From NCBI RefSeq assembly GCF_964019385.1, contig NC_088654.1, positions 5,291,597-5,355,596 on the forward strand: a stretch of DNA of 64,000 nucleotides, read 5' to 3'. A model generated the notes under the pieces. It was not told where the DNA came from. It searched no databases and saw nothing but the letters and a program-made list of their open reading frames with translations. The translations under genes were made by a program, and so were the position numbers. Origin of the DNA: Sycon ciliatum. Lineage: Eukaryota > Porifera > Calcarea > Leucosolenida > Sycettidae. How positions within the stretch are numbered: position 1 is the first letter of the stretch; each line of letters begins with the position of its first letter. Below, one piece after another: positions 226 through 64,000 of the stretch.

Positions 226-231
226 TTTATT
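226..231 (-). terminator. Poly(A) signal overlapping the stop codon of copy 1
   Basis: The minus strand reads TAATAAA across the stop codon. The same arrangement is found at copy 2 (9239-9244) and copy 3 (16893-16898). Copy 5 has AGTAAA at the same place, and copy 4 lacks it. Confidence 0.5.
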
Positions 232-1210
232 ATGAAGTGCCTTCACGTAAAACATTGAGATAACATGCAAACGGATTGTGGTCGAGACGTACAGACTGGA
301 TGTTAAAAAAGTGACGCAACGAAAGCACCTCAGCGCACACTACAAATGGCAGCTTTAGCTTTACCAGTAATTCTAGTCTATCAGTGGTGTCTTGAACTTC
401 CCCAATAAAGCAGGAAATGGCCTCCTCGTGATCTTTGTAGTGCCCTGATGTCCGTTGCGTATGACCTTCAACATCAGTACACGAGTATCCACGCGTACTG
501 CTTGTCAGGCGGGAATGATCGATTGAGGAAGATTTGTAATAGATCTTGGTTCCTGGTCCTAACCATTTGTCTAAAAATGTCGGCACGCAAAAAAGGTCAC
601 CTAAACAATCCACCATAGTCACTGCAAAGTGACTGTTCATCTCCACGGCAATAAGAATCGTACTCCCGGTTTTCGGCTTGAAAACTTCAAAATACACTGG
701 ATGTATAAGTCCTAACGTCAAATTCTTCTCAAGCAGCCCGAAGCTTTTGGAGAGTATCCAATTATATGCACTGAATTTCGGTTTGAGCTCAACTTTCGAC
801 GAAGTTGGTAGGTCAAACAATTTGAAGAAGCCTAGCACAACCTCCATGGGAGTTCCTTGGGCACTGGAAAGATTCGATTCAGCTACGATGGGCCATGAAG
901 ACTTGCAAGGGTTGCACAGCCACCGATACCCGCCTTTTGAACTTGGACTAACATATATTCTGGCTGGTCTTTCGCATTTGTTGCATTGTCTTTCATTACG
1001 AATCACCTTCCTTCTCGCTAAGCAGCGTAGATATGACTCTTTGTCCTGTATATCTTCCGAAAGGTCTGTCCAAGAGTACAATTCCTTCTTCCACTGCTCA
1101 TCCTCCAGTATCATACCTGGTTGCACAATCTGGGTTCCCGTTAGACGTGCATTGGCTGCTACTCCTCGAGACGCACGAGCAGAAGCTGAGTCACCGACAT
1201 TGCACTCCAT
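230..1210 (-). CDS. Merlin/ISXO2-like transposase-derived protein, paralogue 1
   Basis: A 326-residue single-exon frame from the ATG at 1208-1210, a Met conserved in the other full copies. The frame stays open about 50 nt further upstream without an ATG, so a spliced or longer N-terminus is possible. Layout: variable N-terminus (1-50); a Leu-Arg-rich segment; a zinc ribbon with C76-x2-C79 and C99-x2-C102; a helical linker; then an RNase-H-like core. The core shows VYFEVFKP (172-179), where Merlin/IS1595 transposases have the first catalytic Asp, and a PGT-K-I motif (219-223), which normally precedes the second Asp. Position 174 is Glu, the second site reads Lys-Ser, and the usual HTQ-x-x-E is HTQRTS, so a working DDE centre is unlikely. 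Family assignment is from motif order. A host function is inference from the open frames of diverged paralogues. An AATAAA (226-231, minus) overlaps the stop codon. Confidence 0.72.
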   Translation of the reverse strand: MECNVGDSASARASRGVAANARLTGTQIVQPGMILEDEQWKKELYSWTDLSEDIQDKESYLRCLARRKVIRNERQCNKCERPARIYVSPSSKGGYRWLCNPCKSSWPIVAESNLSSAQGTPMEVVLGFFKLFDLPTSSKVELKPKFSAYNWILSKSFGLLEKNLTLGLIHPVYFEVFKPKTGSTILIAVEMNSHFAVTMVDCLGDLFCVPTFLDKWLGPGTKIYYKSSSIDHSRLTSSTRGYSCTDVEGHTQRTSGHYKDHEEAISCFIGEVQDTTDRLELLVKLKLPFVVCAEVLSLRHFFNIQSVRLDHNPFACYLNVLREGTS

Positions 1211-1231
1211 CTTGGCGGACGACGGTGTCAC

Positions 1232-2045
1232 ATTAAACGTTAGCAGAGATCCAGTTACCTGACGGCAAAGGCTTTCGACCAGTTATTGTTTCGAAAGTAG
1301 TTTATACAAGTCCCCTAGTGATCGCATAATTCGCCAACGTGATGATTTTGTCACTTTGTTTAGTTCAACTAGCAATGTCACTAGGGGCAGAGTAACATCG
1401 GGACAGCTAATAACGCTGTCGATCTTGGCACTTGAATTTGCATTTTTGTAATATACACGTATTATACACATATATAATAATTATTTAATGGGAATCGACA
1501 CACTATTATGAGGGTCACTTTGTAATCCTGACAATTCTATCTTCCAAATTGTGATGGATTAGAGGTTTCCACCGAACTTGTTCATTTTCTTCCCAGCTTT
1601 TACCACCCCCCCCCCACCCATTCCTGCGGCGCTAAGTTAATACAAGTGTTTTGTTAGTGATGTATTCAGTGGAAAAATTCGATAATTGGTCTAATTTGAC
1701 AATAAAAGGGAAAATATTTAGCACACATCGTGTGCAGGCGAATATTGAACTCTGTTGAATCTCCTTGTCTGCTTCCAAAATCCTAGCCAAGCCTACTCAT
1801 TCGGCGGAACTTTGTCAATAGTAATTAACTACACTGGTTTATCACCTTGATTATATTTATCTACCATTCAGTGATGTCCGCTAACGGAAGACCATCACGA
1901 GAAAAGGTGTTGAGAAACAAACCATTCCAGAGATGACGTGTGCATGCTCAGATGCATGTACTTAATGACTACGCGCGCATTGTAAAAGTATGCCCATACA
2001 ATTGAGATCTAAAATAGCAATGAAAAATATTAATTGTGCACTCAT
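1232..2045. other. Non-coding 5' flank of copy 1
   Basis: No coding signal seen. Similarity to 10460-11250 is recognisable throughout, for example around 1850-2000 versus 11080-11230. It should contain the promoter of copy 1 if the gene is expressed, but no element can be assigned with confidence. Confidence 0.5.
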
Positions 2046-2096
2046 AACCATGACATTGTGTGCAAATTTGGAACTCGGGTATTGAGCCAATAATAA

Positions 2097-2458
2097 AAGT
2101 AGAAAGGAAAAGGACATATGGAAACGAGTTTTAAGTAACTCTCCACCACTTTAACTAGATACTATTATACAGTCAGAAAGTGCAACAACTAGGCACAAAA
2201 CTGACAGAGTACTGAGACATTCGACGTCCTGACACCTAGCTTCAACACATCTCCGTAGCGTTAAGCGACAGCCTTCCAACTTGGAAGGTTCAAGGTTATG
2301 GAAAGACCAAAGAGGGGAAGGGGGGGACGTCGAATGTCTCAGTACTCTGTCAGTTTTGTGCCTAGTTGTTGCACTTTCTGACTGTATTATAGTATCTAGT
2401 TAAAGTGGTGGAGAGTTACTTTTAACTCGTTTCCATATGTCCTTTTCCTTTCTACTTT
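2097..2458. mobile_element. Foldback element, internally deleted copy
   Basis: Arms of about 135 bp (2097-2238 and 2326-2458) are near-perfect reverse complements around a short loop. A leader from about 2046, containing GAACTCGGGTATTGAGCC, precedes the left arm as in related copies at 2704, 3242 and 51926. It has no coding capacity. Confidence 0.85.
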
Positions 2459-2695: not shown

Positions 2696-2703
2696 GGACA
2701 ATT

Positions 2704-2881: not shown

Positions 2882-2890
2882 CGGACAATT

Positions 2891-3934: not shown

Positions 3935-3949
3935 ATATAATAATTTATT

Positions 3950-4995: not shown

Positions 4996-7900
4996 ATGAG
5001 TTCTACTCTTGATCATGCATTTCATGTGGAGCATGAAAATTCCCTGTGTCGTTTGGATGGCTGCAAATTACCCACAAATCGCAAAGGCCACAAGTCATGG
5101 AGTGCTACTACTTACACCGTCAAGGAACACTCCCTCGATATATTCCGTGCCTTCAACGTTAGAGTTGAAGAGGTTTAAGAGGTAGTGCATCCCAATCAAA
5201 TTTGCAAATCGTGTTTTGATTTTTTGCATTCGACCCTGACGAAAGGCTTATGCAATGCAGGTGGTTGTGGGCAAAGTTTGCCAACTGTTCACGAATGGTA
5301 TGCACCGACAGACAGCAAATGTAGCACCTGCACTAGCATTGCTGCAAGCAGAAAATGTGGACGGCAAAAGAAGGCAACGAAAACGATTCGCGGTGCACGC
5401 ATGACACAGTCATGGTGACAGTGCTGTATCTACTTGCACCAATGCTGTTGAAATTGACCAAGAGAAGGTCGCATCTCTGGTCACTGACAACTATGTTTAT
5501 TGTTTGCCTCTGTCGCCGGACCGCTTCACGTTTGTGCCGAGCGCACTCATTTGCCACATTTGCGGTCTTGTTGCAAGTCGTGCTGTGCAATCTCCCTGCT
5601 GCAGTAAATTAGTTTGTGCTGAATGTATTGTTGGCTGGCTGGAAACCTCTTCGTCCTGCCACGCCTGCAAAAGTTTGTTCTTTTGTCGTCATACCAGTCT
5701 GTACATCCGTTTGCTCCGGTGACGTTGTCTGAAATTGTCCTATCCTGTGACAATGCTGGTGAATCAGCGCTCGAGGGTTGTCCAGCCAGAGCCACATTAG
5801 CATCTTTGCAGAGCCATGTTGCCGAGTGTCCATTCGCCAAACACCCGCCACCCAAGCGCTACTTGACGCCTTCCTGCACCGTGGCAACTGTGTGGGCTGC
5901 ACCACATGACCTTTTGCAAGGTGATGTTGCTTCCAAGCTCCTTAACAGGCTAGTTGAAGCTCGAGCGGAGGATGGCCGACTTGAGCAGCGGACGCGTGGC
6001 AGCCCATCAGTGTGGCACAGGGTTCCTGTGGCAAGGGTGTCATCTTCAGATGCCTCATCGTCCACGCTGCGGCGAAGAAAGAGCCTACTCGATGGCATCC
6101 AGCAGGCAGCATGCGGAGGAGCTAAAGGCAAGCAAGCGCAGAGCGTTCATGCTCTGCAGTCCCTTCGCCGAAGCCAACGGGAAGACCTTATCCGTGAGGG
6201 CGGCTTGCTACCAGAGGGGCTCCAGAAGGGCATCGGTCTTGCCATCAAGTCTGACCTCCAGCTACCCTGGAATGGGCTGCGCAAGCTTCGCCGATATTTG
6301 AGATTGTGTGGACTGTCGCTGGAGTCCGAAAGAGAGATGCGGAAGCAGTTGTCCGAGGAGCTGCCGTGTCCCCTTGTCGCCAAGGAAGTTCCCCTTTTAG
6401 ACAGTTCGGGCACTGTCATCATGAGCCCTGTTGTCTGCTTTGACAACCTGGTGGAGCTGGTTCTTCACTTTGTCGAGCTGAATGAGGAAGCTGGCACACT
6501 AGTTTGGGAAGGTGCCTGCCCAGAAGATGAGCTTTGGGTGAAGATAGGTGGAGACCATGGAGGGCATTCATTCAAGCTTTGCTTCCAGATTGTGAATGTC
6601 CTCCACCCCAACTCCCTTAGCAACACAGTTCCATTCTTGGTCTTTGCTGCGAAAGACTCTCCGTCAAACCTAGCCACGGCGCTTCAACCGTATGCAGACC
6701 AAGTCGACAGACTCCGTAGCTGTTCTTGGAAGGGAAAGAAAATCAAAGTTTGCCTCTTCGTGGACTACGATTTTATGATGAAATTGTATCGCTTGTGTGG
6801 AGCAAGTTGAGTCAGGCCCTGTCTGTTCTGTTTGGCAACAAAGAAAAACATGCAACCATCCCCTGCCACTCTCTTCCCCGACAGAACGCTCGACATACTG
6901 AAAAAGGACTTGGGTCGTTTTGTGGAATCTGGCTCAAGGCTGCAGAACGCCAAACAGTTAAATAACGGTATTCGCCCACAAATCCTGCCAAATGAACTGG
7001 ATTATGTATGTGTCCCAATCCTGCACCTCGACCTGGGAATCTTTCCATTGCTTTTTGGGGCTATGGTCCGAGATGCAGAGGAGATTGACCTGATGCTAGC
7101 CAGAGAAAGCACAGGCACATCTTCGAGCTCCACATTCAACGATGCAGCTAAGATGCAAGGAGAGTTGTGGGTACTCTTAGCAGAGAAAGCACAGCAAGAG
7201 CAGCAGCTTTATGTCGCACAGACACAGCTACAATGGGCAGTGCTAAATGCAGCTCAGGCCATGCAAGCCAATCATGTGGCAGAAGCACAGCACGCAGGCC
7301 TAGCTGCTCAGCTACAACAGCACTGGGCAGCGCAGCAGCAGCAGCTCAACGACATGAATGTGCGAATATCTAGTTTGGAGGAACGGCTTGTGAATGCAAA
7401 GGTTAAGAATGGCCCTTGTGCTTCATCATTCGAGCCAGTACTGGTGAAGCATAGAATAGATCGGCAGGCCTATCACTCGGGTGCTTTCGTTGGCAACCAC
7501 ATCAACAAAGCACTAAAGCCATCAGTGACACAACAGATTGTGTCTGCTCCATTGACAGTGTTTGCTTCTGTTGTAAATCCGGATGGTGCCTCCTTTGCTC
7601 CCACGCAGGCTTCGCATCAACTACTGAAAGCTGCCGAAGAATTCTCCGCTCGGTATGCGTCTCTCTTTGGCAAGTACACTAGTTGCAGAGCCATATTCGC
7701 ATCGACTATCACTGCAGACGACGATATGGTCAAGAGCTTGGAAGAGAAGATCGTATCCTTCATGGCGAACGTGCGGTCGGAGGTTGTTGTGCGGCACAAG
7801 CGTCCTGTCACGCCCGAATTGCATCTGCTTGAGTGTCATCTCGTTCCTTGTGTTCAGAGATTCGGCATGGCACTTGGTGCTCTCGGAGAGCAAGGCGGTG

Positions 7901-8064
7901 AGTCAATCCACGACAAGTTTAACCTGCTGCGAGCAACACTGCAGAATACGAACAAGGATGTCGACCGTCTCCGGACTCTTGTGGCTCAGTACCTGACGAC
8001 AGCGCTGCCTACCCCCAACAAGCTGATCGTGCCAGCTGCCAAGCGCAAGAAATCAGCTAGCTAG
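4996..8064 (+). pseudogene. Broken RING-containing transposase of the RAG1 N-terminus-like (N-RAG-TP) type
   Basis: Segments in order: a CRLxxC... VHPNQICKSC zinc module (4996-5260); a basic stretch; a RING finger CHIC...CCSKLVCAEC...CHAC (about 5540-5670); a GCPxxxL..H...CPF segment (about 5770-5840); a long domain with KIGGDHGGHSFK (about 6540-6580) and a CLFC motif just after 6810; then a C-terminal part (6832-8064) with LHLDLGIF, a Gln/Ala-rich stretch (about 7150-7360), GNHINK and GEQGGESIH. The order resembles metazoan transposons encoding a RAG1 N-terminal-like protein; that assignment is from memory of the family. Visible breaks: in-frame TAA at 5176-5178, a frame change between about 5335 and 5402, another near 5680, and in-frame TGA at 6808-6810. 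It is therefore a recently inactivated copy. The C-terminal 410 codons remain open. Confidence 0.75.
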
Positions 8065-9242: not shown

Positions 9243-10423
9243 TTAGGCAGTGCCTTCACGCAAAACATTGAGATAACATGCAAACGGATTCTGGTCCAGA
9301 CGCACAGACTGGATGTTGAAAAAGCGACGCAACGACAGCACCTGAGCGCACATTCCAAATTCCGGCTCTTTCTCTAGCAGTAATTCTAGTCTCGCAAGGG
9401 TATCTTGAACTTCTCCAATAAAGCAGGAAATTTCTTCCTCGTGGTCCTTGTACTGCCCTGATGTCCGTTGCGTCTGAACATCAACATCAGTACGCGAGTA
9501 TCCAAATGCACTGCTAGTCAGCCGGGAATCATCGATTGAGGAAGATTTGTAAATGATCTCGGTTCCTGGTCCTAACCATTTGTCCAAAAATGTCTGCACG
9601 CAAGAAAGGTCACCAACACTATCCTCCATAGTCACGGCAAAGTGACTGTTCATCTCCACCGCAATAAGAATCGTACTTCCGGTTTTTGGCTTGAAAACTT
9701 CAAAATACACTGGATGTATAAGTCCTAACTTCCAATTCTTCTCAAGCAGCCCGAGGCATTTGGAAAGTATCCACTGATATGAACTGTACGCATATTGCGG
9801 TTTGAGCTCAACATTCGACGAGGTTGGTAGGTCAAACAATGTGAAGAAGCCTAGCACAATCTCCATGGGTGTTCCTTGGGCATTGGAAAGATTCGATTCA
9901 GCTACCATCTGCCATGTAGCCGTGTAACGGTTGCACCTCCACCGATACCCGACTTTTGAGTTTGAATGAACATGTATTCTGGCTGGTATTTTGCAGTCGT
10001 TACATTGTCTTTCATTACGAATCACCTTCCTCCTGGCCAAGAAGCGTAGCAATGACTGTTTGTCCTGTATATCTTCCGCAAGGTCTTTCCAAGAATACAC
10101 TTCCTTCTTCCACTGCTCATCGTCCAGTATCATACCTGGTTGCACAATCTGGGTTCCCGTTAGACGTGCATTGGCCGCTACTCCTCCAGACGCACCGACA
10201 AAAGCTGAGTCAGCGACATTGGACTCCTGGCCAAGAAGCGTAGCAATGACTGTTTGTCCTGTATATCTTCCGCAAGGTCTTTCCAAGAATACACTTCCTT
10301 CTTCCACTGCTCATCGTCCAGTATCATACCTGGTTGCACAATCTGGGTTCCCGTTAGACGTGCATTGGCCGCTACTCCTCCAGACGCACCGACAAAAGCT
10401 GAGTCAGCGACATTGGACTCCAT
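9243..10423 (-). pseudogene. Merlin/ISXO2-like paralogue 2, N-terminus disrupted by tandem duplication
   Basis: Residues equivalent to about 15-326 of copy 1 are open (9243 to about 10224), with KSSSID, PGTEI and VYFEVFKP conserved. The second zinc pair is damaged (CNRY in place of CxxC). An exact 194-bp direct duplication (10031-10418) lies in the 5' part. Because 194 is not a multiple of three, translation from the conserved ATG (10421-10423) leaves frame and stops at 10178 after about 80 residues. A downstream ATG at 10305-10307 regains the correct frame and would give 354 residues with a foreign N-terminus. The copy is probably a recent pseudogene, or the duplication is an assembly error. 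AATAAA overlaps the stop codon. Confidence 0.7.
10031..10418. repeat. Exact 2 x 194-bp tandem duplication
   Basis: Bases 10031-10224 and 10225-10418 appear identical. They cover the first 60 or so codons of copy 2. No other gene copy has this duplication, so it arose after the paralogues separated. Confidence 0.9.
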
Positions 10424-16620: not shown

Positions 16621-18130
16621 TGAATTTCTCGTCGCTATTGTTACGACATGCAAGTACAACATAAATTACACTGGGTATATGAGAACAAGTACACCAAAGA
16701 GAAACAAAACAAAAACAATACGAACGTACGGCCGGGTTTCTACAAAAAAAAACAATAACGTGCTCAACAAGATCACAAGGTAACACTTTTCACAAGCGTA
16801 ATGCATTGAGCAGTCTGAAATTATGATTGCGTAGTATGAAATACTTGCAACTGAAAGTACTAGGGTATATTCGAGAGTTCACAAATGCCCAGTTTATTAT
16901 GAAGTGCCTTCACGCAAAACATTGAGATAACATGCAAACGGATTCTGGTCCAGACTTACAGACTGGATGTTGAAATAGCGACGCAACGACAGCACCTCAG
17001 CACACATTCCAAATTCCGGATTTTTCCTTAGCAGTAATTCTAGTCTAGCATGGGTATCTTGAACTTCTCCAATAAAGCAAGAAATGGCCTCCTCGTGATC
17101 ATTGTACTGCCCTGATGTCCGATGTGTATGACCATCAACATCAGTACACGAGTATCCACGTGCACTGCTAGTCAGCCGGGAATGATCGATTGAGGAAGAT
17201 TTGTAAATGATCTTGGTTCCTGGTCGTAACCATTTGTCTAGAAATGTCTGCACGCAACAAAGGTCACCTACACTATCCGCCATAGTCGCTGCAAAGTGAC
17301 TATTCATCTCTACCGCAATAAGAATCGTTCTTCTTTTTGTCGGCTTGAAAACTTCAAAATACACTGGATGTATAAGTCCTAACTTCAAATTCTTCTCAAC
17401 AAACACGAGGCTTTTGCAGAGTATCCACTGATACGATCTGAAAGCATATCGCGGTTTGAGCTCAACATTCGACGAGGTTGGTAGGTCAAACAATTTGAAG
17501 AAGCCTAGTACAATCTCCATGGGAGTTCCTTGGACACTGGAAAGATTCGATTCAGCTACGATGGACCTGGTGGAGTTGCAACGGCTGCACTGCCATTGAT
17601 ACCAGCCTTTGGCCCGTGAATTACCATAAATTCTGGCTGATGTTTCGCATTTGTCACATTGTCTTTCATTACGAATCACCTTCCTTCTTGCCAAGAAGCG
17701 TAGCAGTGACTCCTTGTCTTGCACATATCCCGCAAGGTCTTTCCAAGAGTACACGTCCTTCTTCCACTGCTCATCGTCCAGTATCATACCGGGTTGCACA
17801 ATCTGGGTTCCCGCTAGACGTGCATTGGCCGCTACTCCTTCAGACGCACCGGCAGAAGCTGATTCTCTGACATTGGAATCCATTTTGGTTGCCGACGGTG
17901 TCACACTAAACGCTAGCTGAGATCCAGTAACTTGGCGACAAAGGCTTTGGACCAGTTAATGCGTCTACAGTAGTTTATACAAGTCCCCTAGTGACGACAA
18001 AAGTATACAGTGTGATGATTTTGTCACTTACTCTTACGATATTGTTGAACTAGCAATGTCACCTGGAACAGAGTAAATTTTGGAGAGATAATTCCATTAG
18101 CGAACTTGGTGCTTGGATTTGCCTTTTCGC
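16620..18130. repeat. Segmental duplication unit C (gene copy 3 plus flanks)
   Basis: Starts with a 3' flank shared with copies 1, 2 and 4 (CTGGGTATA..ACAAGTACACCAAA). It ends in a 5' flank resembling 10480-10680, running to about 18120. Confidence 0.7.
16897..17883 (-). CDS. Merlin/ISXO2-like transposase-derived protein, paralogue 3
   Basis: A 328-residue intact frame from the conserved ATG (17881-17883). The zinc ribbon has CDKC and CSRC. Core motifs are VYFEVFKP, AVEMNSHFA, RPGTKIIYKSSSID, HTHRTSGQY and CFIGEVQDTHARLELLL. As in copy 1, the site of the first catalytic Asp is Glu and the other two expected acidic sites are not conserved. It is the cleanest complete copy in the window and would be the best reference for expression tests. 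AATAAA overlaps the stop. It lies about 1 kb from copy 4 in the same orientation, consistent with tandem amplification. Confidence 0.74.
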   Translation of the reverse strand: MDSNVRESASAGASEGVAANARLAGTQIVQPGMILDDEQWKKDVYSWKDLAGYVQDKESLLRFLARRKVIRNERQCDKCETSARIYGNSRAKGWYQWQCSRCNSTRSIVAESNLSSVQGTPMEIVLGFFKLFDLPTSSNVELKPRYAFRSYQWILCKSLVFVEKNLKLGLIHPVYFEVFKPTKRRTILIAVEMNSHFAATMADSVGDLCCVQTFLDKWLRPGTKIIYKSSSIDHSRLTSSARGYSCTDVDGHTHRTSGQYNDHEEAISCFIGEVQDTHARLELLLRKNPEFGMCAEVLSLRRYFNIQSVSLDQNPFACYLNVLREGTS

Positions 18131-18900: not shown

Positions 18901-19926
18901 CTACATTGTAATCCCCTCACGCAAAAAACTGAGATACAATGCAAACGGATTCCTGTCCAGAACCACAGACTGCATCTGGAAATAGCGGTGCAAGGACTGC
19001 ACCTCAGCGCACATTTCAAAATCCGGCACTCGGTTTAACAGTAATAGTAGTCGATTATGAGTTTCATCCACTTCTTGAATGAAGCAGGAAATGACAGTCT
19101 GGTGGTTATCCTTGTACTGCTGTAGCTGTGCTGACGTCAATTGTGACTGATCATCAACATCAATATACACGTAGTGACGTGCACTGCTAGTCAGCCGGGC
19201 AGGATCGATTGAGGAAGATTTATAAATGATCTTGGTTCCTGGTCCGCACCATTTGTCTAAAATTCTCGGCACGCAAGAAAGGTCACCTGAAGTGTCCGCC
19301 ATTGTCAATGCCATCTTACTGTATCTATCTACGGCAATAATCATCGTGCATTCGGCTCGTGGCTTGAAAACACCTAGATACACTTGATGCACACACCCAA
19401 ACTGCAAATTCTTTTCAAGCAGCTCGAGGCTTTTGTGGAGTATCCAAATATATGATTTGGCTCTCGATTTAATCACCAGTTTGGTTTCGGTTGGCAGGTC
19501 AAACAGTTCGAAAAAGCCTATCACGATGTCCAAGAGGTTTCCTGGGATACCGGCAAGATTTGATTCAGCAACGACAGTCCATGAGGACTTGCAAACGCTG
19601 CACCTCCACTGACACCTGCCGACTGACGATGGCCGAGCGTAGAGTAGAACTGGTCTTTTACATTTGTCACATTGTCTTTCATTATGAATCAACTTCCTTG
19701 TCGCCAAGAAGCGTAGCAATGACCGGTTGTTCCGTACATCCGCAGGTACGTCCTTCAAAGAATCCTCTTCCTTCTTCAACTGCTCATCCTTCAGTATCTC
19801 ACTTGGTTGCACAATCTGGGTTTCCTCTAGACTGGCACTCGCTGCTGCTCCTCCAAACGCACCGGCATAAGCTGAGTATCCGGCATTTGTATACATCTTG
19901 GCGGACGACGGGATCACAATAAACAT
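18901..19926 (-). CDS. Merlin/ISXO2-like transposase-derived protein, paralogue 4
   Basis: A 341-residue intact frame; the ATG at 19924-19926 gives MFIVIPSSAKM, and the Met conserved in other copies is at 19896 (331 residues). The zinc ribbon is CDKC...CSVC. The core diverges more from copies 1-3: VYLGVFKP has Gly at the first catalytic position, and AVDRYSKMALT, GPGTKIIYKSSSID and DDQSQLTS follow. A two-residue insertion (QLQQYKDNHQ) is seen before the CFIQEV helix. An open frame despite this divergence argues for past selection. The 5' flank is interrupted at 20173 by two DNA transposons and resumes at 29661. Confidence 0.72.
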   Translation of the reverse strand: MFIVIPSSAKMYTNAGYSAYAGAFGGAAASASLEETQIVQPSEILKDEQLKKEEDSLKDVPADVRNNRSLLRFLATRKLIHNERQCDKCKRPVLLYARPSSVGRCQWRCSVCKSSWTVVAESNLAGIPGNLLDIVIGFFELFDLPTETKLVIKSRAKSYIWILHKSLELLEKNLQFGCVHQVYLGVFKPRAECTMIIAVDRYSKMALTMADTSGDLSCVPRILDKWCGPGTKIIYKSSSIDPARLTSSARHYVYIDVDDQSQLTSAQLQQYKDNHQTVISCFIQEVDETHNRLLLLLNRVPDFEMCAEVQSLHRYFQMQSVVLDRNPFALYLSFLREGITM

Positions 19927-20173
19927 TAGCAGCGAACGATTTGAAGTAGTGACATGGATACCAAGACTTTAGATGAATAATCGTGTCGCAGACAGTTAAT
20001 ACAGTCCGCTAGTGATGACACAAACAGTGTGTTGATTTCATCACTTACTGTTACAATACTGTTCAGTTGGTTTAGCCGCCACTTCTAGAGCACACCAAAA
20101 GTGGGGATCACGTACTCTTGACAACACCAGTTCCGGCTTTGTCGCTAGAATTTGCATTTCCACTATATATTTA

Positions 20174-20968
20174 AGAGAGCATGTCTGAGAAAACCAGAAC
20201 ATATGTGCAAGTCGATCTCTCAGATTTCGCTCAAATTTTGCAGGTAGGTTTGCTTTGGGGTGTAGATCGACATTCCAAAGCCCGCACAAAATCTTTTGAA
20301 GGGAACCATGAAATTGGCATACCCCTCAATATTGGCCCAATATTGGCACGATTTATGGGTCTACAAACGAGCCACGGCACAGCGTACAAGAACAAGCTAC
20401 GAACAAAACTCCATGAAGCCATCATTACCTCATCTTAGAAGAGTTATTGGGGCAGCACCACTTAGCCACGCCAGCATCCCAGAAGACGAGGGAAATCATC
20501 CGTTTACGCCACAAATGATCGTCTTGAAAATAGCCAAATTACAAGCGCTCATAAAACAGCGAGCTACGTCCTCAATTAGCAAACACTATACACCGGCAGA
20601 TAGTAGAACACCTCTTCTAGCACTGAGGACATGTCCCCCATCATCCTTTTGGGGTTTTCTTGAAATAAACAATTTTGAATTTTTCCACTCGACCATTCTG
20701 AAATACGTCCAAACTCATACCTGCGCAGGAAAGCTCGCCCCTCCGCGACGTCTAGTCAGCAATTTCTACTCCAACACCACTCCCAACGCTGCAGAACAAA
20801 GTGTATTGTTGACTCTGACAAGGAAAAGCAGCGGTGATCACTTGTCACTCCAAACGACAAGCTTCTCCTTGCGCCACCAACATTTTTCGTTGCAACAGGT
20901 GATGCAAAAGTGACTGAATTTTTGCGTGTAGGTTTTGGATTTGACTGCAAGAGGAATGATGAAATCAC
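20174..20968 (+). repeat. Left terminal inverted repeat of the 7.3-kb transposon
   Basis: Reverse complement of 26650-27442, with only a few differences seen by eye. It contains an open frame of 205 codons (20296-20913) that is also open in the right repeat (26703-27320). Because the arms are near copies, that openness is not independent evidence of coding. Confidence 0.9.
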
Positions 20969-21158
20969 GTGCCTCGTGACACAAGAATGCCAGGTCTCCT
21001 AGATCACGGTTCAGCAATGGCACCTATGCATAAAACATGGCGGCCAGGTCGCCATCGCGACTTCGCACCTTTGTGCGGGGCAACTTGCTCGACGCGAGGC
21101 TCTCCTTTGTTTTCAGTCGTTGCAGTGGAAGACAGTATCGATATTAGTTGACAGGAAG

Positions 21159-23034
21159 ATGGCAGTCAGTCAGGATTTTTCCCAGCTCACCTTGAACCTT
21201 CTGAAGGTGAAGTGTGGAGAGTATGGTCTCAAGAAGTCGGGAAAGAAAGCCGATCTAGTTGCGAGGTGAGTTGTTTTCTTCCCACAACAAAATCTTATTT
21301 TTTTGAAATTATTTGTGAATCTGAGTTTGTTATTTATCTGCTCGTGTCGTTTACAGACTTGCTCAGCATTTCTCTGAAGGCGACGGTGATGGCAAGGAAG
21401 GTCCACCTCCGCCAGCTGCAGCGCTTGCTGTTATTCCCCACGACCCTCTGGATTTTCCTGTTACTGGGTGGCAGCCGATTAAATCTGCGAGTGGAAGGCT
21501 ACTCTCCCTGTCGTTCTCCATGCAAACTATGGTTTCTTATTTCGTGGACACTATGACCAGCGATGGACCTGCCAAGAATTTCAAAGCGCTTGCTGCCACT
21601 GATAGCAAGTCAATTCGTCTGTATCGAGCAGGTTATGTCCAGAAAATCGAACTGATGAAGGCCAACAGCCGTGTGTACTACCGTGCCCGCTGTCAGCCTG
21701 AAATGAAGACCAAAGCTGACTACAAACTTCGGCTCGTTGCTCAGTGTGACTCAGGATCTGCCACCAGTGTTGTTGGTGCTCAGTGCACTTGTCCTGCTGG
21801 CAAGGGTGTTACTGCCAGTTGCAAGCATATAGCTGCACTGATGTATGGCTTGTCCGAGTTCACTCTGCTTGGGTTTAGTGACGCTCCGACGTGCACGGAC
21901 ATGCTGCAAAAGTGGAACCAGCCTCCTGCAGGTGCAGGTAAAAAGAGTGAGCCCATGCTGGTTCAAGACATGGAGTGGCGTAGAGGTGGCAGTACCACTG
22001 ACAAATCTGCGCCAAAGAAACGTAAGCATTCTGCTGCAGAAGTACTTGACCCTCGTGCTGTTGCAAAGCGGATGGACTTTGCCCGGCGTGTGGAGGAATA
22101 CGCCAACTCAACCATTCACTCCAACTCCATCCACCTAGCATTGCCTCTTGTTGCTGGTAGCTCAGGATTTGCTGCTAAGCAGAAGGAGGACAGGTTGCAC
22201 AGAGCCCAAGCGCAGAAAAAGGAGAGACTGGCTAGGGCAGGGGAACAGAAGGACAAGTGGCAGGTTGAGCACAGCAGATCAGGTGATGTGACACCTGTGC
22301 CATCTGACTGCGAGTGGCTAACTGAGGACAAGCAGATGCTGTTGTACGAGTCCAATGTCATACTTACTTGTGAAGAAGCCAATGCCCTGCAAGAAGCCAC
22401 TGCATCCCAAACAACAAGTGAACTCTGGAGGAATGAACGAAAGAAGCGTATTACAGCTTCCATTGCCCATACTGTAGCTCATCGACGACCTCAGACTGAC
22501 CCGTCATCCCTCATAAAAACTATCATTGATCGGCCGGCGTTCACCACTCCTGCAACCAGATGGGGGATTGATCATGAAGAAGAGGCACGATGTGCCTACG
22601 TAGCCCACCAAGCCAAGTCTGGCAAGCTGATAGATGTTGTTGCATGTGGCTTATTTGTGCATGCTGATGAATGCTGGTTTGGTGCCAGTCCCGATGGCAT
22701 TGTTAGGGATGGTGATACATCACTTTTGCTCGAGATTAAATGCCCGTTTGTTGCTAGAGACCAAAGTCTAGCAGAGGTAGCTGGGTCTACTGCATCATTT
22801 TGTTTGTCCAACAAGGATGGTGTGCTTTCTCTCAAAACAACACATGCCTACTATACACAAGTGCAAATGCAGCTCTTTGCTGCAGGCCTTCAATTTTGTG
22901 ACTTTGTAGTGTGGTCTCCCTGCAATGATCTTTTTGTTGAGCGCATTTCATTTTGTGAAGTGCATGTCAAGAAAACTCTCGCAGCTTGCCGAACATTTTA
23001 TTTTGATCATGTTCTCCCGAAACTGGCTCTGTGA
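21159..23034 (+). CDS. SAP-SWIM-YqaJ exonuclease-like protein of the transposon (two exons)
   Basis: Proposed exons are 21159-21265 and 21357-23034, with a 90-nt intron (GTGAGT...TTTACAG). The split Arg codon joins in frame, giving 594 residues. Exon 1 plus the start of exon 2 forms a SAP-like helix-extended-helix (about 8-42; LKVKCGEYGLKKSGKK then VARLAQHF), a DNA-binding module. A SWIM finger follows (C179-x-C181...C191-x-H193). A Lys/Arg-rich linker leads to the YqaJ/lambda-exonuclease fold: ERKKRITAS (about 396), WGIDHEEEA, SPDG (Asp about 482) and LEIKCP (Glu about 495, Lys about 497). All nuclease motif residues are present, so the enzyme looks intact. Its probable role is DNA-end processing during transposition or repair, which is inference. 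It converges on the transposase gene, with about 0.7 kb between stop codons. Confidence 0.8.
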
Positions 23035-27442: not shown

Positions 27443-27444
27443 TA

Positions 27445-30040: not shown

Positions 30041-30044
30041 ACTA

Positions 30045-56565: not shown

Positions 56566-56906
56566 TGTTGTAAACCACCAGTTCTCAATTGGGAAAGGCC
56601 TTCGCGCTTATGGCATTGTATTCGTTGAAATGTTGTATTTCGACTCCGCTGTACCGCTGATGTTGCTGCATGGCATACGCTATATGCGTTGTGTGCGTTT
56701 TGCTGTATACGCTGTTATGTCCAGTTTTATATGCTTATGTTTTGCATGTACGCTGTTTCTGCATGCTATAAATAGCTGGTGTTATTCGTGTTCATTGTTT
56801 AATTATCAGATGAAGTGAAATATACTGTGTAAAGGAAAAGAGTTGTCCTCGTGCCGTGTGGTCGTACGATCCTGACAATTTAGAGAATCTTAGAGGGTTC
56901 ATAACA
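56566..56906 (+). repeat. 5' LTR of the BEL element
   Basis: Contains a TATA-like GCTATAAATAGC near 56767, presumed start of the promoter. A 96-codon open frame in it is repeated in the 3' LTR and is not called a gene. Confidence 0.93.
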
Positions 56907-56908
56907 TT

Positions 56909-56925
56909 TGGCGACCACGCCAGGA
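56909..56925 (+). promoter_or_regulatory. Primer-binding site of the BEL element
   Basis: TGGCGACCACGCCAGGA lies two bases after the LTR, the position and general form of tRNA primer sites in this group. The tRNA was not determined. Confidence 0.6.
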
Positions 56926-56936
56926 TAGGAGCGAGC

Positions 56937-59165
56937 ATGGCAGAGCAACTACACAATTTGGAAGCCAGCTTTATCGCCAATGGAGTTCGGTTAGGATTAG
57001 AAGGCGAGTTGTTGATGGAACATGTGGAGCAGAGGCTCCAACAGTACGAGGAGCGTGAGGAGCGCAGTGCCAGACGGCGAGAGGAGGCGCTCCGCACCGA
57101 GTTTGACAAAACACTAAAGGAGATTAACGAGCGCATCGCCAATGCGTATGAGGGTGATGGTAAAGCCACGATGGGAGGTACAGAGGAAGCTCCCAGTAAC
57201 AGCGGGGGGCGTCCACCGTTGATGAAAATCCCCTCATATGATGGAACGCAGCCATTGGAGCGTTATCTTGACCTGTTCGAGGACATCTGCTCCAAGAACA
57301 AGTTCGAAGAAAGCGAATGGCTGCTGCGATTGCGCATCGCGCTAGCGGGTAGCAAAGCGGAGAGGATATGCATTGGATGCAATAATTACGAGGAAGCGAA
57401 GCGAGAGTTGCTCGCCTCGCTCGGAAAGACTCCGGATAAAGCGTGGAAGACATTGCTGACAGGCAAGCAGCGGTCAGATGAGTCGTTTCACCAATACGTT
57501 GTCCGTGTTTGCCGAGAAGTAGAAGTGTGGGCCACACTCGCTATGACAGAAGATGGCGAGGTGGACACCAAGTATAGCGCCGATATAGGAAAAATGTCCC
57601 CGGTGCTGCAAGCAATGGCAAAGCAGGTAATCTTGGAGCAATCCGGACCTGAGATGAAGACGTACCTGGTCGAATGGCAGTGCTACGGGATGTCACTGCG
57701 CCAGGTACAGGAGCACGGCGCGTCTTACCAGGTCGCGCACGGACGACAGGGTGATACTGCCAGGAAGCCAGTAGAACGATCCGTGCCAAGGCCCACGGCG
57801 TCGGCACAGTGCATGGCGATATCGGTCGCAGATGCAGAGAAGCAGCTAAAGTCGCTGCCACTGGAAGGGAGAAAGGGTTTTCTGCAGCGAGAGAGACTCT
57901 GCTGGAACTGCCTTAAGTATGGCCATATGGCCAGAGAATGTCGGTCAGGCTCGAGATGCACGAAATGCCAGAGGAAACACCACCTGCTAATACATGAGGT
58001 GTTGGATAGAGCAGGTTATAGCCGGGAGAAACCGACTGAGATAGTTACGGAGAAGAATGTTGGGTCGTGCTGTCTACACTCGCCAAGTGTGCGGCTGATG
58101 ACCGGAGTGGCACGAGTTGAGGGAAGAACTCGAAACGCGAAGGTTCGCGTGTTCCTGGACTCGGGTGCTGAGGCGTCATTCGTGACTGCAGCGTTGGTGT
58201 CAGCAATCGATGCAGAACACGTTGGGGTTGAAAATGTAGAGGTGAAGCCGTTCGGCGCGGAACCAACCCAACAGCGCATGGATAAGTACGCCATCACGAT
58301 CCAGGGTAGCTCCGCTAGCATTCGGGTACGCGCGTTCGTGAAACCAACGCTTGAGATGGACCTGAAGTGCGCAAGTCCGCAGACCATTGCCCAGTGGCAC
58401 AGTTGGGGAGTAGAGCTGAGTGACAAGCCTCAACAAGGGACATCAGACGAAATACATATGCTGATTGGTGCAGACTATATCAACGCGGTACTGCACAGCA
58501 AGAAGGAAGTTAATGGTGAGACGGTGTGGAACACAGAGATAGGTAATGTATTATCTGGTCCAGCGTCTGCACCAAGTCGAAACAGTCAGCCGGTGACCGT
58601 GTCATGTGTCACAGCCCACATTGAACAACTATGGCAGTTGGATGAACCTCCAGAACAACATCAGCACCTGCCATCTTTCCCGCTATGTCGCCAGGGCAGC
58701 GGGTACCAAGTGGGTCTCTTGTGGCGAAATGAGCGTCGCCCAACGGATAACTTTGCTCAAGCTAGAGTCATCGCAACGCGGCTTCTTGAAAAGCTGAAGA
58801 GGAATGGGAAGCGTGCGCTCTATGATGATGTGCTGATCAGGGAGTACCGCGAGCTTGGAGCAATTGAGCTGGAGCCATGTGAGAGCGATGCCGGGTACTA
58901 TGTACCGCATCATGGTGTATTCCGCGAGCACGCTGCAACCACGAAGTTAAGAGTGGTGTTCAATGCCTGGGCGACGGCTCCAGATGGCAAGTCGTTGAAC
59001 GACATGGTTGACCCTGGACCGTCGCTATTGCCGAGTCTCGCAGGTATGCTATTACGGTTCCGTGAATATAAGAGCGCGCTGCAAGCGGACATCCGCAAGG
59101 CTTTCTTCATGGTCGCGGTTAATCCCGAAGACCGTCCGTACCTGCGTTTCTTGTGGCCCGGTCGA

Positions 59166-59197
<32 letters not shown>

Positions 59198-61502
59198 CGA
59201 TGAACTGTTAACCTGGAGGCTAACGAAACTGCCATTTGGCGTAAACTGCTCGCCGTACATGCTTACTGCGGTGATTCAGCATCACTTGAAGGAGCTACGG
59301 GCGTTGTCTGCACCCAAAGAGCGAGATCGTATTGATCTCTTGCTCACGAGTTTCTACGTTGACGATTTGGTCTCTAGTGTGTCAAATGCCTCGGAAGCCA
59401 AGGAGATGCAAGAGTTCAGCGTGCGTGTGCTTACGGATGCTGGCATGGAGTTACGCAAGTGGCGAGGCAACGAAATCCCGTCCGATCCAGAGGCCGGAGA
59501 TAAAGTCCTCGGTCTGAAATGGAAAACCAGTGATGACTTGCTCAGCATAGCAGCGCTAGGCGAGTCCGATAGGCCGTCTGTTTGGACCCGGCGATCCCTC
59601 CTCAAGTGTGTTGCATCAGTGTTTGATCCGCTAGGTCTAGCAGCACCGGCAGTTGTGCCGGGAAAGATACTGCTACAGCAAGCCTGGAAAGTCGGAGGCG
59701 ACTGGGATGATATGTTGCCTGATGGCATCGCAGCCGCATGTGCGCAATGGTGGGGAGAGTTGGCCGAAGTGGTGAGCATTGACATACCACGTTGGATTTG
59801 CTGCAATCTTGACACGCCGATTGCGCTTCATGCCTTCGCCGATGCCAGTGAGAAAGCGTTTGGATGTTGTTTGTATGCAGTCGTCAATGGACAGTCGCAC
59901 TTGGTATTTGCCAAGGCCAAAGTGTCACCTGTGTCTCCGCCCACGTTAGCCCGCCTTGAGTTACAAGCAGTATGTTTAGCGGCTCGCTACGCTGAGTTTG
60001 TGGTGAAGGAGCTGCGTGTTACCGTCACGCAAGTCTATGGCTGGACTGACAGTCTCACTACCGTTCATTGGATCAGTAATCCATCGTACAAATGGAAAAC
60101 ATTTGTGGCTAACCGCGTCAGTCAAGTCCAAGAGATATCGAAGAAGGTCGGCATTGTGTGGAACCATTGCCCGGGCCTTCACAACCCAGCAGATTTACCG
60201 TCGCGTGGGAGTAGTGCACAGCAGATCCGTAGTCCGTTCTGGAGGGGCGGACCAGCCTGGATCACGGAGCCCAATGACTGGCCCACCGCATCCTCAACCG
60301 CAGCTACAGATGAGTCCAGTGTAGAAGTACGAGTGTCAGCCACCACCTGTTGTCGAGAATCTGATAAGGAATGGTGGCTCCGATTCAGTAAATGGTCGAG
60401 GGCACAGGGCATGGTGACTCGGATGTTGCAGTGGAAGCACACTGAGCCTCGTGCTGAACTCTATTTTGCAGCAGACAACGTATTGTACCGCATCGTTCAA
60501 GCCGCCTGTTTCGCTGAGGATCTTGAGCTGATCAAGCAAGGTCAACCAGTGAAGCCCGGGTCGAAGGTGTATCAGCTTGCACCGTTTCTGGATGAGCATG
60601 GAGTGCTCAGAGCCGGGGGACGACTTCAGCACAGCGAGTTGGCGTATGGAGCCAAGCACCCAGTCCTGTTAGGCAAACATCATCTGACCGATTTGCTGTT
60701 GGAGAAAATGCATGTTGAAAGGATGCACCAAGGTGTAGAAGGAGTCTTGTCGTTTATCCGTCAGAAATTCTGGATTATCGGGGGTCGACGAGCGCTACGC
60801 AACATTACTCAGCGATGTGTTACATGCCGCCGCTACAAGGCTAAGGCTGCCTCAGAAGTCTGCCCGCCGCTGCCAGAAGACCGAGTTGTTCACGAGAGGC
60901 CGTTCGCAACTACCGGCATCGACTATGCTGGTCCGTTGTACGTGCGCCGTGGTGAGTCATCTCCGAAGGTATGGATAGCATTGTTTGTGTGTGCCACCAC
61001 CAGAGCAGTTCACTTGGAGGTGGTCGATAGTTTAAGTACCGAGTCATTCTTGATGGCATTTCGGAAGTTTGTCGCGAGACGTAGTTTGCCGTCTCGGATC
61101 AGGTCTGACAACGCTACAACGTTCAAGGCGGCATCTGACAAACTGAGTGTGCCATGGATGTTCAATCCTCCAGCTGCACCATGGCATGGAGGCTTCTATG
61201 AGCGAATGGTTGGTACAGTGAAGAGTGCCTTGAAAAAGGTAATGGGAACAGCGTTTCTGAAGGTTCAGGAGCTTGAGACCATCTTGTATGAGGTTGAAGC
61301 AGTGGTGAATAGTCGTCCGTTAACTTATGTGTCTGATAGCCTGGATGAGCCACCAGTAACCCTTGCAATGATGATGGGTAACATTTGGATGTCGTCAGCG
61401 AAGCCAGCAGGTACCCCGGACGCTACGCATATGTCAGCGAGATTGCGTTACCTCAGTCAGACACGAAGCATGTCAAGAATCGTTGGGAGGTGGAGTACCT
61501 AA
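56937..61502 (+). CDS. BEL/Pao Gag-Pol polyprotein, C-terminal frameshift
   Basis: The ATG at 56937 is the first after the primer-binding site; upstream open codons lie in the LTR. 1521 residues. Order: Gag with coiled N-terminus; zinc knuckle CWNCLKYGHMAREC plus CTKC (about 321-345); aspartic protease FLDSGAEASF (about 405); reverse transcriptase ALQADIRKAF, KLPFGV and YVDDLVSS (about 807); RNase H HAFADASEKAFG (about 963), LELQA and TDSLTT; integrase zinc HH..CC (about 1250-1300); and core GIDYAGPLY (Asp about 1327), IRSDNATTF and WHGGFYERMVG. All active-site motifs are present. A Ser-Asp repeat (AGCGAC units, 59163-59202) sits in the reverse transcriptase just before ELLTWR. The frame is lost between about 61450 and 61480. 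The expected C-terminal domain (GDVVFVLDD, WRLGRIIELFPG) continues in another frame to 61873. Confidence 0.92.
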
Positions 61503-61873
61503 GTCAGCTGAACAAGCACCAACAGACCATGTCGCGCCCTTTAGCTGTGGGTGATGTTGTCTTTGTTCTCGATGATACCAAGCGCAAACAGTTCTGGCGT
61601 TTGGGACGGATCATCGAGTTATTCCCTGGTCGAGATGGCAAGCGTCGTGTTGCCAAGGTTAAGTTGAGTACCAGTACCCTGTTGAGGCCGATCCAAAGGT
61701 TAGTGCCATTAGAAGTATCGTCACAGGACGTGGCTCCTGGGCTTGCCGATACCGCTCAACCTGCTATCGTCCCTCAGCAGCCAGCGTATGAACCGCCAGC
61801 ACAATTACCACCACCACGGCAGCAGGAGATGACGCGTTCTGGGCGCGTAGTCAGAGCCCCGGATCGTTTTTGA
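61450..61873 (+). CDS. C-terminal segment of BEL Pol in the shifted frame
   Basis: Frame +2 relative to Gag-Pol. It encodes KHVKNRWEVEYLSQL, VGDVVFVLDDTKRKQFWRLG and PGRDGKRRVAKVKL, the conserved tail after BEL integrases (DUF5641-like), then a Pro/Gln-rich end and stop at 61871-61873. It is part of the same gene, displaced by a one-base change upstream (or a base-calling error). Confidence 0.8.
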
Positions 61874-61921
61874 CTTGTGTGCATTGTTGTACGGCGGTGA
61901 GAAGCCCTTTGGTGGGGAGAA

Positions 61922-62262
61922 TGTTGTAAACCACCAGTTCTCAATTGGGAAAGGCCTTCGCGCTTATGGCATTGTATTCGTTGAAATGTTGTATTTCGAC
62001 TCCGCTGTACCGCTGATGTTGCTGCATGGCATACGCTATATGCGTTGTGTGCGTTTTGCTGTATACGCTGTTATGTCCAGTTTTATATGCTTATGTTTTG
62101 CATGTACGCTGTTTCTGCATGCTATAAATAGCTGGTGTTATTCGTGTTCATTGTTTAATTATCAGATGAAGTGAAATATACTGTGTAAAGGAAAAGAGTT
62201 GTCCTCGTGCCGTGTGGTCGTACGATCCTGACAATTTAGAGAATCTTAGAGGGTTCATAACA
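61922..62262 (+). repeat. 3' LTR of the BEL element
   Basis: Identical by eye to the 5' LTR, followed by ACCAT. Confidence 0.93.
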
Positions 62263-62267
62263 ACCAT

Positions 62268-63085
62268 GTTCGATTGGGAATAAAGGAGGAACGCTGCATC
62301 ACAGCCTTTTCGGACAAAAAACAGTCGACTCAGCGTCCAAAAGAATACAACATATGGGCCAATCGCGGTCATCCGTGCTTTTCTAAGAACGAAATGGCGC
62401 TTTTAGTGACATTTTGCATACAAATCCCCATCTCGTAGGGCGCAGCCACCCAGTTTCGGTGGAAGCGCGCGAGTTCGATTGGGATTCAAGTAGGAAGGGA
62501 GCGTCTCAGCTTTCTCGGACCAAGACCATTCCACTCAGCACGCCGAAGACTACAACTGGTGAAGTTTTGATTTTTGCCTTAACTTCCCCTTTAAAACTTG
62601 ATTGAATGAAAGCGGGAACGAGTTGCCATAACTCACTTTAGTGGTGGGAACGGATGAGATGTTTCCGTTGGTTTTGCCCAAAGAGGCATACTACCCTGGG
62701 GCGGCTAGACGTGCGACCGGATTTCCATGTCCACGACAGTACGAGGTCTAGGCTTATGACATAAGTACGACATCGGTTACAACTAAAAGAAAAACCCTAT
62801 TACAATGAACAGTGCATATCGGTTGTAGTGGGGTAGACAGGCCTCTTTTACGGGCAAATTAACACAATGGTTTTAAATGCAATAAATCATACATTGGAAA
62901 CAAAATCAGAAAAAAATGCTTGTGTAAAATACAGAATTTCGGACCCAAACAAATAAAACTTCAAATCAATTTTTTATAATTAAAATAAACTCAATCAATA
63001 AACTCAATTCAAAAGGAGGAAAATATTACAAAAAACAACAACACTGTACTAATTAATAAGAACACCCAAAACCTCAAGAAGGAAA
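62268..63085 (-). repeat. Right arm of the inverted repeat around the BEL element
   Basis: Uninterrupted inverse of left-arm pieces at 56355-56060, 55450-55140, 52182-52120 and about 51925-51895. It gives the empty-site state for the foldback, Penelope and mini-LTR insertions in the left arm. Confidence 0.8.
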
Positions 63086-63089
63086 ATAA

Positions 63090-64000
63090 TAATTTGTGAA
63101 ACTATTACCATAGTACACACTCCTGCAGTAAAGTATTGAACTTGACCTCCTCAAGTTTAAGACGTACAAGAGCAAAATATATTATAGTGGGTCCGAGCAG
63201 TAGACCAAACGGTAGGGAGGAACAAAACAACGAATACTTCAAAGTATGTGCAATTGGTTTCTGCACATTAACAAAAAGGTGAGCAACACGATGACGAAGT
63301 TATTATTTACACAAGCACAATACATGGAATTGTTGAGATTGTGAATAGATATGAAAAACTTGAAAGGGTCAACACGACTGTCTATTCAAGACTACACAAT
63401 ACCCGCAATTTACTATGTACGAGTAATGTCTTCACGCAAGAAACTGAGATAAACTGCAAACGGATTTATAGCCTGATATGAAGATTGTATATAGAAATAC
63501 CGCTGTAATGACAGCACCTGAGCACAAATTCGAATATCAATCGGTTCCTTTAAGAGCCCATTTAGTCTAGCATGGTGTGTGAACATTTCATCAATGAAGC
63601 AGGCTATAGCTGCCTCGTGCTTTTCCTTGTACTTCACAAACGTCAATTGTGTGTGATCATCGACATCATTATAAAAGAAGTCTCGTGCACTGCTAGCTTG
63701 CTGAAAATGATTGATTGAGGAAGATTTGTAAATGATCTGGCTTCCTGGTTGTAACCATTTGTGTAAAAATGCGTGCATGCCAGAAAGGTCAACAGAACGG
63801 TCCAGCTGGGTCACAGCAAAGTTAGTGTTCATCTCTACCGCAATAATCATGTTAAATTCGGCATAGGGCTTGAAAACATCCAAATATACTAGATTCAAAG
63901 GTCCAAACTTCAACTTCTTTTCAAGCACTTCGACGCTTTTGGAGGTTATCCAATGATATGATCTAGCTTTCGACATAATCTGCACTTTGCACGAGGTTGG
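63090..64000. repeat. Segmental duplication unit E (gene copy 5), continuing beyond the window
   Basis: 63090-63410 resembles the 3' flank of copy 3 (16560-16895), including GTGAAACTATTA and CTCCTGCAGTAAA. Confidence 0.65.
63413..64000 (-). CDS. Merlin/ISXO2-like transposase-derived protein, paralogue 5 (partial)
   Basis: About 195 C-terminal codons. The frame is open to the window edge and aligns from the PTS..V segment after the zinc ribbon. Motifs: VYLDVFKP, AVEMNTNFAVT, QPGSQIIYKSSSIN, DDHTQLTFVKY and CFIDEM. It is roughly half identical to copies 1-3 and is the most divergent. It alone keeps Asp at the first catalytic position (VYLD), but has Asn at SSSIN and no Glu after HTQ, so the triad is still incomplete. 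The stop is TAG at 63413-63415, with AGTAAA overlapping. The N-terminus and zinc ribbon lie outside the window. Confidence 0.72.
   Translation of the reverse strand, partial: PTSCKVQIMSKARSYHWITSKSVEVLEKKLKFGPLNLVYLDVFKPYAEFNMIIAVEMNTNFAVTQLDRSVDLSGMHAFLHKWLQPGSQIIYKSSSINHFQQASSARDFFYNDVDDHTQLTFVKYKEKHEAAIACFIDEMFTHHARLNGLLKEPIDIRICAQVLSLQRYFYIQSSYQAINPFAVYLSFLREDITRT

Follow-up and report, generated by a model that had tools for sequence, protein, structure and literature searches.

Merlin-related genes in a one-strand array of the sponge Sycon ciliatum, a candidate family of host-co-opted transposases

Described relatives and analogues

Co-opted transposases are known mostly as single genes or small families. 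Among those of the Merlin/IS1595 class, the domesticated DDE_Tnp_IS1595 proteins of Oxytricha number 11, seven of which keep the DDD residues; they lack terminal inverted repeats (TIRs), and a role in the cutting or pasting of DNA during genome rearrangement was proposed for them (PMC3558436, in the parts of that report drawn on here). Merlin-related open reading frames of Stentor, Symbiodinium and Perkinsela are conserved and without TIRs or TSDs, some have been amplified by segmental duplication, and their domestication was suggested by the authors; in the sections used here, that account reports neither a large one-strand array nor an analysis of selection (PMC8101967). A more distant parallel is offered by the KRAB zinc-finger gene clusters, which, according to the part of the source cited, are amplified by segmental duplication and change at DNA-contacting residues (PMC5363842).

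The family described here was found in a window of 64,000 nucleotides of Sycon ciliatum DNA. It resembles Merlin/IS1595 transposases (PF12762) in its collinear homology and DDE-integrase fold, but it has no PF12762 match, no family-wide TIRs and a Lys at the position of the second catalytic Asp, and it is clustered whereas those elements are dispersed. Like the Oxytricha set, as far as it is described in the parts consulted, it would be a multi-member host family of the same transposase class without TIRs; unlike it, it comprises about 40 clustered copies, has no triad and shows an apparently diversifying ribbon (PMC3558436). With the KRAB clusters, as partially sourced, it shares clustered amplification, the DNA contact of its ribbon being putative, but the proteins are unrelated, strings of C2H2 fingers plus KRAB on one side and a dead transposase with one zinc ribbon on the other (PMC5363842). 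Literature searches found nothing on a Merlin-derived tandem array.

The array and its copies

The sequence-only reading had described a tandem family of five minus-strand copies, and all five were located where it had placed them. Copy 1 (230 to 1210, minus strand; C13:5291829-) is intact, with 326 residues and E, K and IS at catalytic columns 177, 228 and 267-268; a TATAAA on the same strand (1301 to 1306) stands at -96 from the conserved ATG, within a 5′ region that alignment shows to be common to the copies. Copy 3 (P0002; 16897 to 17883, minus strand, 328 residues), the basis of the structure model, is also intact and has its minus-strand TATAAA at 17974 to 17979, again at -96 from the ATG. 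On the same strand, its zinc ribbon runs from Cys76 to Cys102 (17578 to 17658), its RNase H/DDE-integrase-like core covers residues 170-305 (16969 to 17376), and the codon of Lys228, which replaces the second catalytic Asp of Merlin, lies at 17200 to 17202. Copy 4 (P0003; 18901 to 19926, minus strand) is intact over 341 residues, with Gly in the first catalytic column and the family's conserved start Met at 19896. Copy 5 (63413 to 64000, minus strand), with Asp in that column, is cut by the window edge and represented by its 3′ part only; its whole open frame occupies C13:5355012-5356049 (346 codons). Its identity to copy 1 is 48%, in line with the rough half estimated beforehand, and that of copies 2, 3 and 4 is 78%, 76% and 55%. 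The view that the frames are open apart from a duplication in copy 2 held for copies 1, 3, 4 and the whole of copy 5. In copy 2 (9243 to 10423, minus strand), however, an exact 194-bp tandem duplication (10030 to 10421, no strand assigned) breaks the ATG frame: translation from the ATG (10423) meets a stop after 81 residues, and the remainder (9243 to 10310) is open but without the family's start Met. Copy 2 is best called a recent pseudogene.

Tandem amplification was thus correctly read in the window, but the size of the family was not. The interval C13:4.898-5.416 Mb holds about 40 copy loci, every one on the minus strand, and additional clusters are found on C11 and C9. The C13 count (28 loci with open frames of at least 330 codons, counting copy 2, and 12 broken) results from merging search places by eye, with two small fragments omitted and short C-terminal fragments beside genes joined to those genes, and the locus search gives lower bounds. 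The 28 open copies include, besides copy 2 with its broken ATG frame, C13_5023390, whose C-terminal end is altered. Full-length copies extracted outside C13 number four on C11 and three on C9; alignment A2 has 34 rows, that is, the 35 full-length copies minus C13_4969518, which spans two fetched stretches. Several array copies share 95-98% identity with one of the window copies, and some duplications are therefore recent.

That the frames are maintained beyond chance was upheld by a simulation of neutral codon evolution along the inferred tree, in which a mean of 0.08 of the 28 copies stayed open; these copies were chosen for openness, and the simulation therefore speaks mainly for the inner branches. 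In recent pairs (n=12, covering 24 of the 28 copies with no copy shared, two pairs sharing one short branch) pN/pS was 0.60. Upstream flank divergence over all 12 pairs was 0.097, and 0.030 (59/1978) when the copy 2 pair and the copy-4 type pair were left out, the upstream alignments of copy 2 with its duplication and of the copy-4 type pair being unsound. The start Met and the TATA are retained as far as C11 copies of 30-33% identity; in counts covering -140 to -51 only, TATAAA is missing from 10 of 35 copies.

Ancestry, catalytic positions and selection

The proposed Merlin-like ancestry was borne out by profile comparison, hhalign of the family profile against Merlin giving 95.9% (E 5.8e-9) and controls less than 0.5%. 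Two other DDE-family residents of the window, a Harbinger-like THAP protein and a BEL/Pao pol, were rejected as sources (hhalign <0.5% each). Homology to Merlin/IS1595 is collinear, spanning an N-terminal I-x-x-P motif, the ribbon and the RNase H core in turn; the local alignment ends at residue 227, beyond which the global one carries little confidence. The HMM check against IS1595 that had been proposed came out negative: none of 34 members matched PF12762 (DDE_Tnp_IS1595) even with E values of up to 1 allowed, whereas a true Merlin of the same genome (L049) matches it at E 3.9e-20. Pfam scans of the copies returned no useful matches, and a PDB sequence search with the family profile returned no convincing one. 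A different fold, which would have spoken against the initial idea, did not appear; in Foldseek the copy 3 model has a DDE-integrase fold with modest TM-scores (query-normalised ~0.3), and matches in the viral structure library were largely retroviral integrases again.

The claim that all three catalytic positions are substituted stood only in part. The second Asp (column 228) is Lys in 34 of 35 copies, and the third acid, placed by eye and without certainty at column 267 or 268, is not conserved at the columns examined (267: I in 32/35, otherwise V, M or T; 268: S or A in 30/35, D or E in four C11 copies, Q in one). The first column (177), however, often still holds Asp; 30 of 35 copies have D or E there, and window copies 1 to 5 have E, E, E, G and D. 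A complete DDE triad is absent as a conserved feature from the 35 copies. Because the second Asp has become Lys, the family is expected to have lost the DDE chemistry by which DNA is cut and joined.

TIRs, which with 5′-GG would mark a Merlin transposon, were not found around each copy: in 33 copies the inverted-repeat scores of the flanks equalled those of shuffles on average, and no family-wide TIRs emerged. The single outlier, C13_5007904, has an inverted match of 46 bp (score 22) that by eye resembles sequence lying upstream of window copy 4, and it is taken for a repeat in the flanks. True Merlins are present in the same genome as near-identical copies with sharp terminal repeats, and their terminus has no match in the array. 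The true Merlin of this genome has three of the four ribbon Cys; the array family has a four-Cys ribbon. An open frame under selection without mobility, by which domesticated transposases are recognised, was found here.

Retention of the zinc ribbon was confirmed, each of the four Cys and Trp97 being conserved in 34 or more of the 35 copies. In the selection tests, which concern C13 alone and control only partially for gene conversion between copies, the one-ratio omega was 0.85. This is near the value of about 1 that the sequence-only reading had set against itself, but it mixes constrained, neutral and diversifying sites: 36% of sites have an omega of 0.22, and the M2a test for diversifying sites is significant. 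Twelve sites reached a posterior above 0.9 (none above 0.95 on the coarse grid), six of them in the ribbon, Cys76-Cys102 plus residue 103, and the others at 15, 117, 152, 159, 292 and 310. For the ribbon as a whole, singled out post hoc, omega was 1.24 (2dlnL 1.3) or, without the ligands and Trp97, 1.43 (2dlnL 3.5), in neither case significantly above 1; in recent pairs it was 0.90, not above 1. The C half gave a weaker signal (2dlnL 10.6). The family seems to change fastest around the zinc-binding tip that may recognise DNA.

Competing explanations and significance

Ancestry, fold, loss of the conserved triad, lack of family-wide TIRs, maintained frames, a shared promoter region and site-level diversification are supported by the computations. 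They are probably best explained jointly by Merlin co-option, one-strand amplification, purifying selection on frame and fold, and ribbon diversification. The host would have taken over a Merlin/IS1595-type transposase as a gene of its own, with Lys replacing the second catalytic Asp and the N-terminal zinc ribbon and RNase H-fold core retained. Units that each carried a TATA promoter and one coding frame without interruptions would then have multiplied by tandem and segmental duplication into the C13 array, the C11 and C9 clusters being older branches, and the 12 broken loci would reflect birth and death of copies. Purifying selection would hold frame and fold, and diversifying selection would act on the neighbours of the four zinc ligands and on the hairpin of the ribbon. 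Host co-option and any role of the family are what we infer from the sequences; the ribbon presumably binds DNA, its changing residues may alter what is bound, the core may act as a dimer or scaffold, and the conflict partner could be a mobile element, perhaps the true Merlins of the same genome.

The broken loci, the recent duplications and a one-ratio omega close to 1 would also suit functionless old Merlin copies carried in segmental duplications, their frames surviving through youth or homogenisation. This is improbable in view of the neutral simulation, the constrained class of sites, the near-invariant Cys and Trp97, the pN/pS of recent pairs and the persistence of start Met and TATA to the distant C11 copies; neutral relics were rejected on the simulation, the recent pairs and the flank divergence. 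More credible, but still unlikely, is a co-opted family in which the partner of the diversifying ribbon is a protein or an RNA, for instance from a pathogen or a reproductive rival, rather than DNA. Zinc ribbons can bind proteins as well, and half of the diversifying sites lie outside the ribbon; against this, the ancestor was a DNA-binding transposase, and in DDE transposases the N-terminal module usually binds the element ends. It is very improbable that the family is a still-mobile unusual element, or a non-autonomous partner that the true Merlins mobilise: the near-identical Merlins of the genome and the 46-bp match in 1 of 33 copies speak for it, but the copies all lie on one strand of one 0.52-Mb block, family-wide TIRs and the true Merlin terminus are lacking, and the second Asp is almost always Lys. 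An ordinary dispersed transposon family was rejected on the one-strand clustering and the same two absences at the termini.

Co-option with ribbon diversification, the preferred explanation, can be extended, tentatively and with some doubt, by analogy: the array might be an independent counterpart of the KRAB zinc-finger clusters, its ribbon tips diversifying to recognise, and silence or block, the changing sequences of mobile elements. If so, the end-binding module of a transposon would have been turned into an anti-transposon recognition repertoire, and the intact relatives with sharp terminal repeats in the same genome are possible targets for asking what the array recognises. The evidence suggests that the host may reuse an array of dead transposases in a fast-evolving recognition role; dozens of tandem copies with residues diversifying beside the zinc ligands would, if this is true, represent a second, independent, fast-evolving recognition repertoire.

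The array and its relatives

Sequence comparison found all five Merlin-like genes that the sequence-only reading had placed on the minus strand (copies 1 to 5; 230-1210, 9243-10423, 16897-17883, 18901-19926 and 63413-64000). That all of them except copy 2 are open held for copy 5, which is truncated by the window edge and has an open frame of 346 codons in the chromosome, and was refined for copy 2. Here, an exact 194-bp tandem duplication ends the ATG frame after 81 residues while the remainder is still open, so copy 2 is considered a recent pseudogene. It is also the sole copy in which Tyr replaces Cys102, a ligand of the N-terminal zinc ribbon.

The window corresponds to C13:5291597-5355596 in an assembly of 538.4 Mb (313 contigs), whose eukaryotic nature is clear from BEL/Pao and THAP-DDE_Tnp_4 sequences. 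Searching this assembly with copy 3 gave at least 109 matches. After merging by eye, about 40 loci, every one on the minus strand, lay in C13:4.898-5.416 Mb, the array to which the window copies belong; 28 of them retain an open frame of 330 codons or more, and the other 12 are broken. A second cluster, at C11:2.69-3.02 Mb, contains diverged copies on both strands, whose longer matches mostly show around 30-36% identity, and further relatives are found on C9, C10 and C8. Two diverged C9 relatives (L055 1-1177; C9:15.32-15.33 Mb) form the ends of N-terminally extended open frames of about 700 codons; in one, of which the last 391 codons were read, the extension is acidic and the ribbon contains extra Cys. 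Partial duplication was also observed: several copies are followed, after a few hundred bases, by a gene-end fragment of at most the last 59 codons (matches to copy 3 at C13:5291415-5291591 and five comparable sites).

Other features of the window

An apparently full-length BEL/Pao retrotransposon occupies 56566-62262, and its insertion is very recent because its 341-bp end repeats (56566-56906, 61922-62262) are 100% identical. A Harbinger-like protein with THAP, HTH_Tnp_4 and DDE_Tnp_4 domains (23726-25717, minus strand, open over 663 codons) carries a repeat rich in Ala, and inspection by eye suggests a Cys-rich finger at its C terminus. A YqaJ exonuclease-type protein (21325-23034, plus strand, 569 open codons, E 9.7e-17) also gives a weak SWIM match, under Pfam's cut-off. 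At 5623-8064 (plus strand), two adjoining open frames, the first with DUF1280 (E 1.6e-15), share one reading frame with a single stop between them and are possibly one element. Four copies of a 0.8-kb unit in both orientations (20161-20990, 26623-28285, 28853-29673; 86-99% identical) form large palindromes, and an imperfect palindrome at 30043-30370 contains a predicted tRNA-Ser (CGA).

Catalytic residues, mobility and kept frames

Substitution of all three catalytic positions had been proposed. This is correct for the second: in a gap-free alignment, Lys228 (PGTKIIYK) takes the place of Merlin's second Asp (PGTRIMSD), and residue 228 is K in 34 of the 35 full-length copies extracted and T in the other. 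Even by itself, losing this middle acid would be expected to eliminate DDE chemistry. The third substitution is probably correct: the position is 267 or 268 and no acid is conserved there family-wide, with 268 being D or E in all four C11 copies. As a general statement the first fails, since residue 177, aligned with the first Asp (IDES), is often acidic (C13: E 15, D 10, G 3; C11: D 2, N 2; C9: D 3).

That the array family is itself a mobile element was rejected. Flanks were long enough in 33 of the 35 copies, and in these the best inverted match between upstream and downstream sides averaged 9.7 against 9.4 in shuffles; the outlier, C13_5007904, scored 22 (46 bp) and the next-best copy 13. 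The terminus of this genome's true Merlins is sharp at five of six loci, the sixth being a two-mismatch variant. It has 39 genome matches at up to two mismatches, none of them inside the array, versus 3 for the pattern read backwards. By hand, 14 convergent pairs were counted, 11 spaced 2.4-4.8 kb (seven at about 3.6-3.7 kb) and three 0.7-1.2 kb. The true Merlins include several elements of about 3.6 kb with a 337-codon transposase and are probably recently active, because they are near-identical at several places.

The array frames are kept beyond neutral expectation. In 300 neutral simulations of the 28 C13 copies with stops permitted, each copy gained 7.1 stops, and on average 0.08 copies (maximum 4) stayed open. 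Twelve recent pairs showed 165 nonsynonymous and 78 synonymous differences (pN/pS 0.60); their coding sequences had diverged by 0.021, compared with 0.045 for the 230 bp downstream of the stop codon. The start column is Met in 32 of 35 copies. Up to about 250 bp upstream of the ATG is common to the C13 copies, with weaker likeness to C9 and C11. Of the 35 copies, 25 have TATAAA in the interval from -140 to -51 (1.8 in shuffles). It sits at -96 in 14 of the 28 C13 copies and at -82 in four; each of the four C11 copies has it at -87 or -88.

Possible diversifying selection on the zinc ribbon, and interpretation

Across the 28 C13 copies, the one-ratio omega was 0.85 (lnL -7614.46 versus -7617.77 at omega 1; kappa 1.5), and our own codon-likelihood script returned the same lnL. 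With branch lengths fixed up to a scale, M2a improved on M1a by 2dlnL 63.5, with 36% of sites at omega 0.22, 52% at 1 and 11% at 2.9. The improvement was 48.2 for the N half (own tree), 10.6 for the C half, 37.3 for residues 55-125 (local tree) and 57.2 with 12 representatives. When synonymous rates were left free in a FUBAR-like analysis, 12 sites exceeded 0.9 (15, 78, 87, 90, 100, 101, 103, 117, 152, 159, 292 and 310), eight of them above 0.95; a coarser grid gave eight and none. No more than 2 sites, and in some runs 0, came out of 24 null simulations, half of which used four different segment trees. Six of the 12 sites are among ribbon residues 76-103 (Fisher P 1.6e-4 for a region picked post hoc). 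The four zinc ligands are kept in 28, 28, 27 and 27 of the 28 C13 copies, and their neighbours 78, 98, 100, 101 and 103 show 6, at least 8, 8, 7 and 7 different residues (posterior for 98, 0.89). Counting against ribbon diversification, the ribbon-wide omega of 1.24 does not exceed 1 significantly (1.43 without the ligands and Trp97, 2dlnL 3.5), and the ribbon ratio in recent pairs, 0.90 versus 0.56 elsewhere, is raised but does not exceed 1.

Precedents are available in the form of domesticated IS1595-type proteins. Eleven are described in Oxytricha, seven of which keep the catalytic residues (PMC3558436), Merlin-related ORFs without TIRs are reported from several protists (PMC8101967), and the DDE/D domains of Blepharisma include an IS1595-type (Merlin) one, the triad not being intact in every copy of these domains (PMC9942856). 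No large Merlin-derived tandem array was found in the literature searched, a coverage that excluded most subscription journals. The family is taken as a set of probably co-opted, catalytically dead transposases amplified by birth and death, with an apparently diversifying ribbon. The pattern of the array recalls that of KRAB zinc-finger clusters (PMC5363842). The partner of the ribbon would more likely be DNA, because the ancestor binds DNA.
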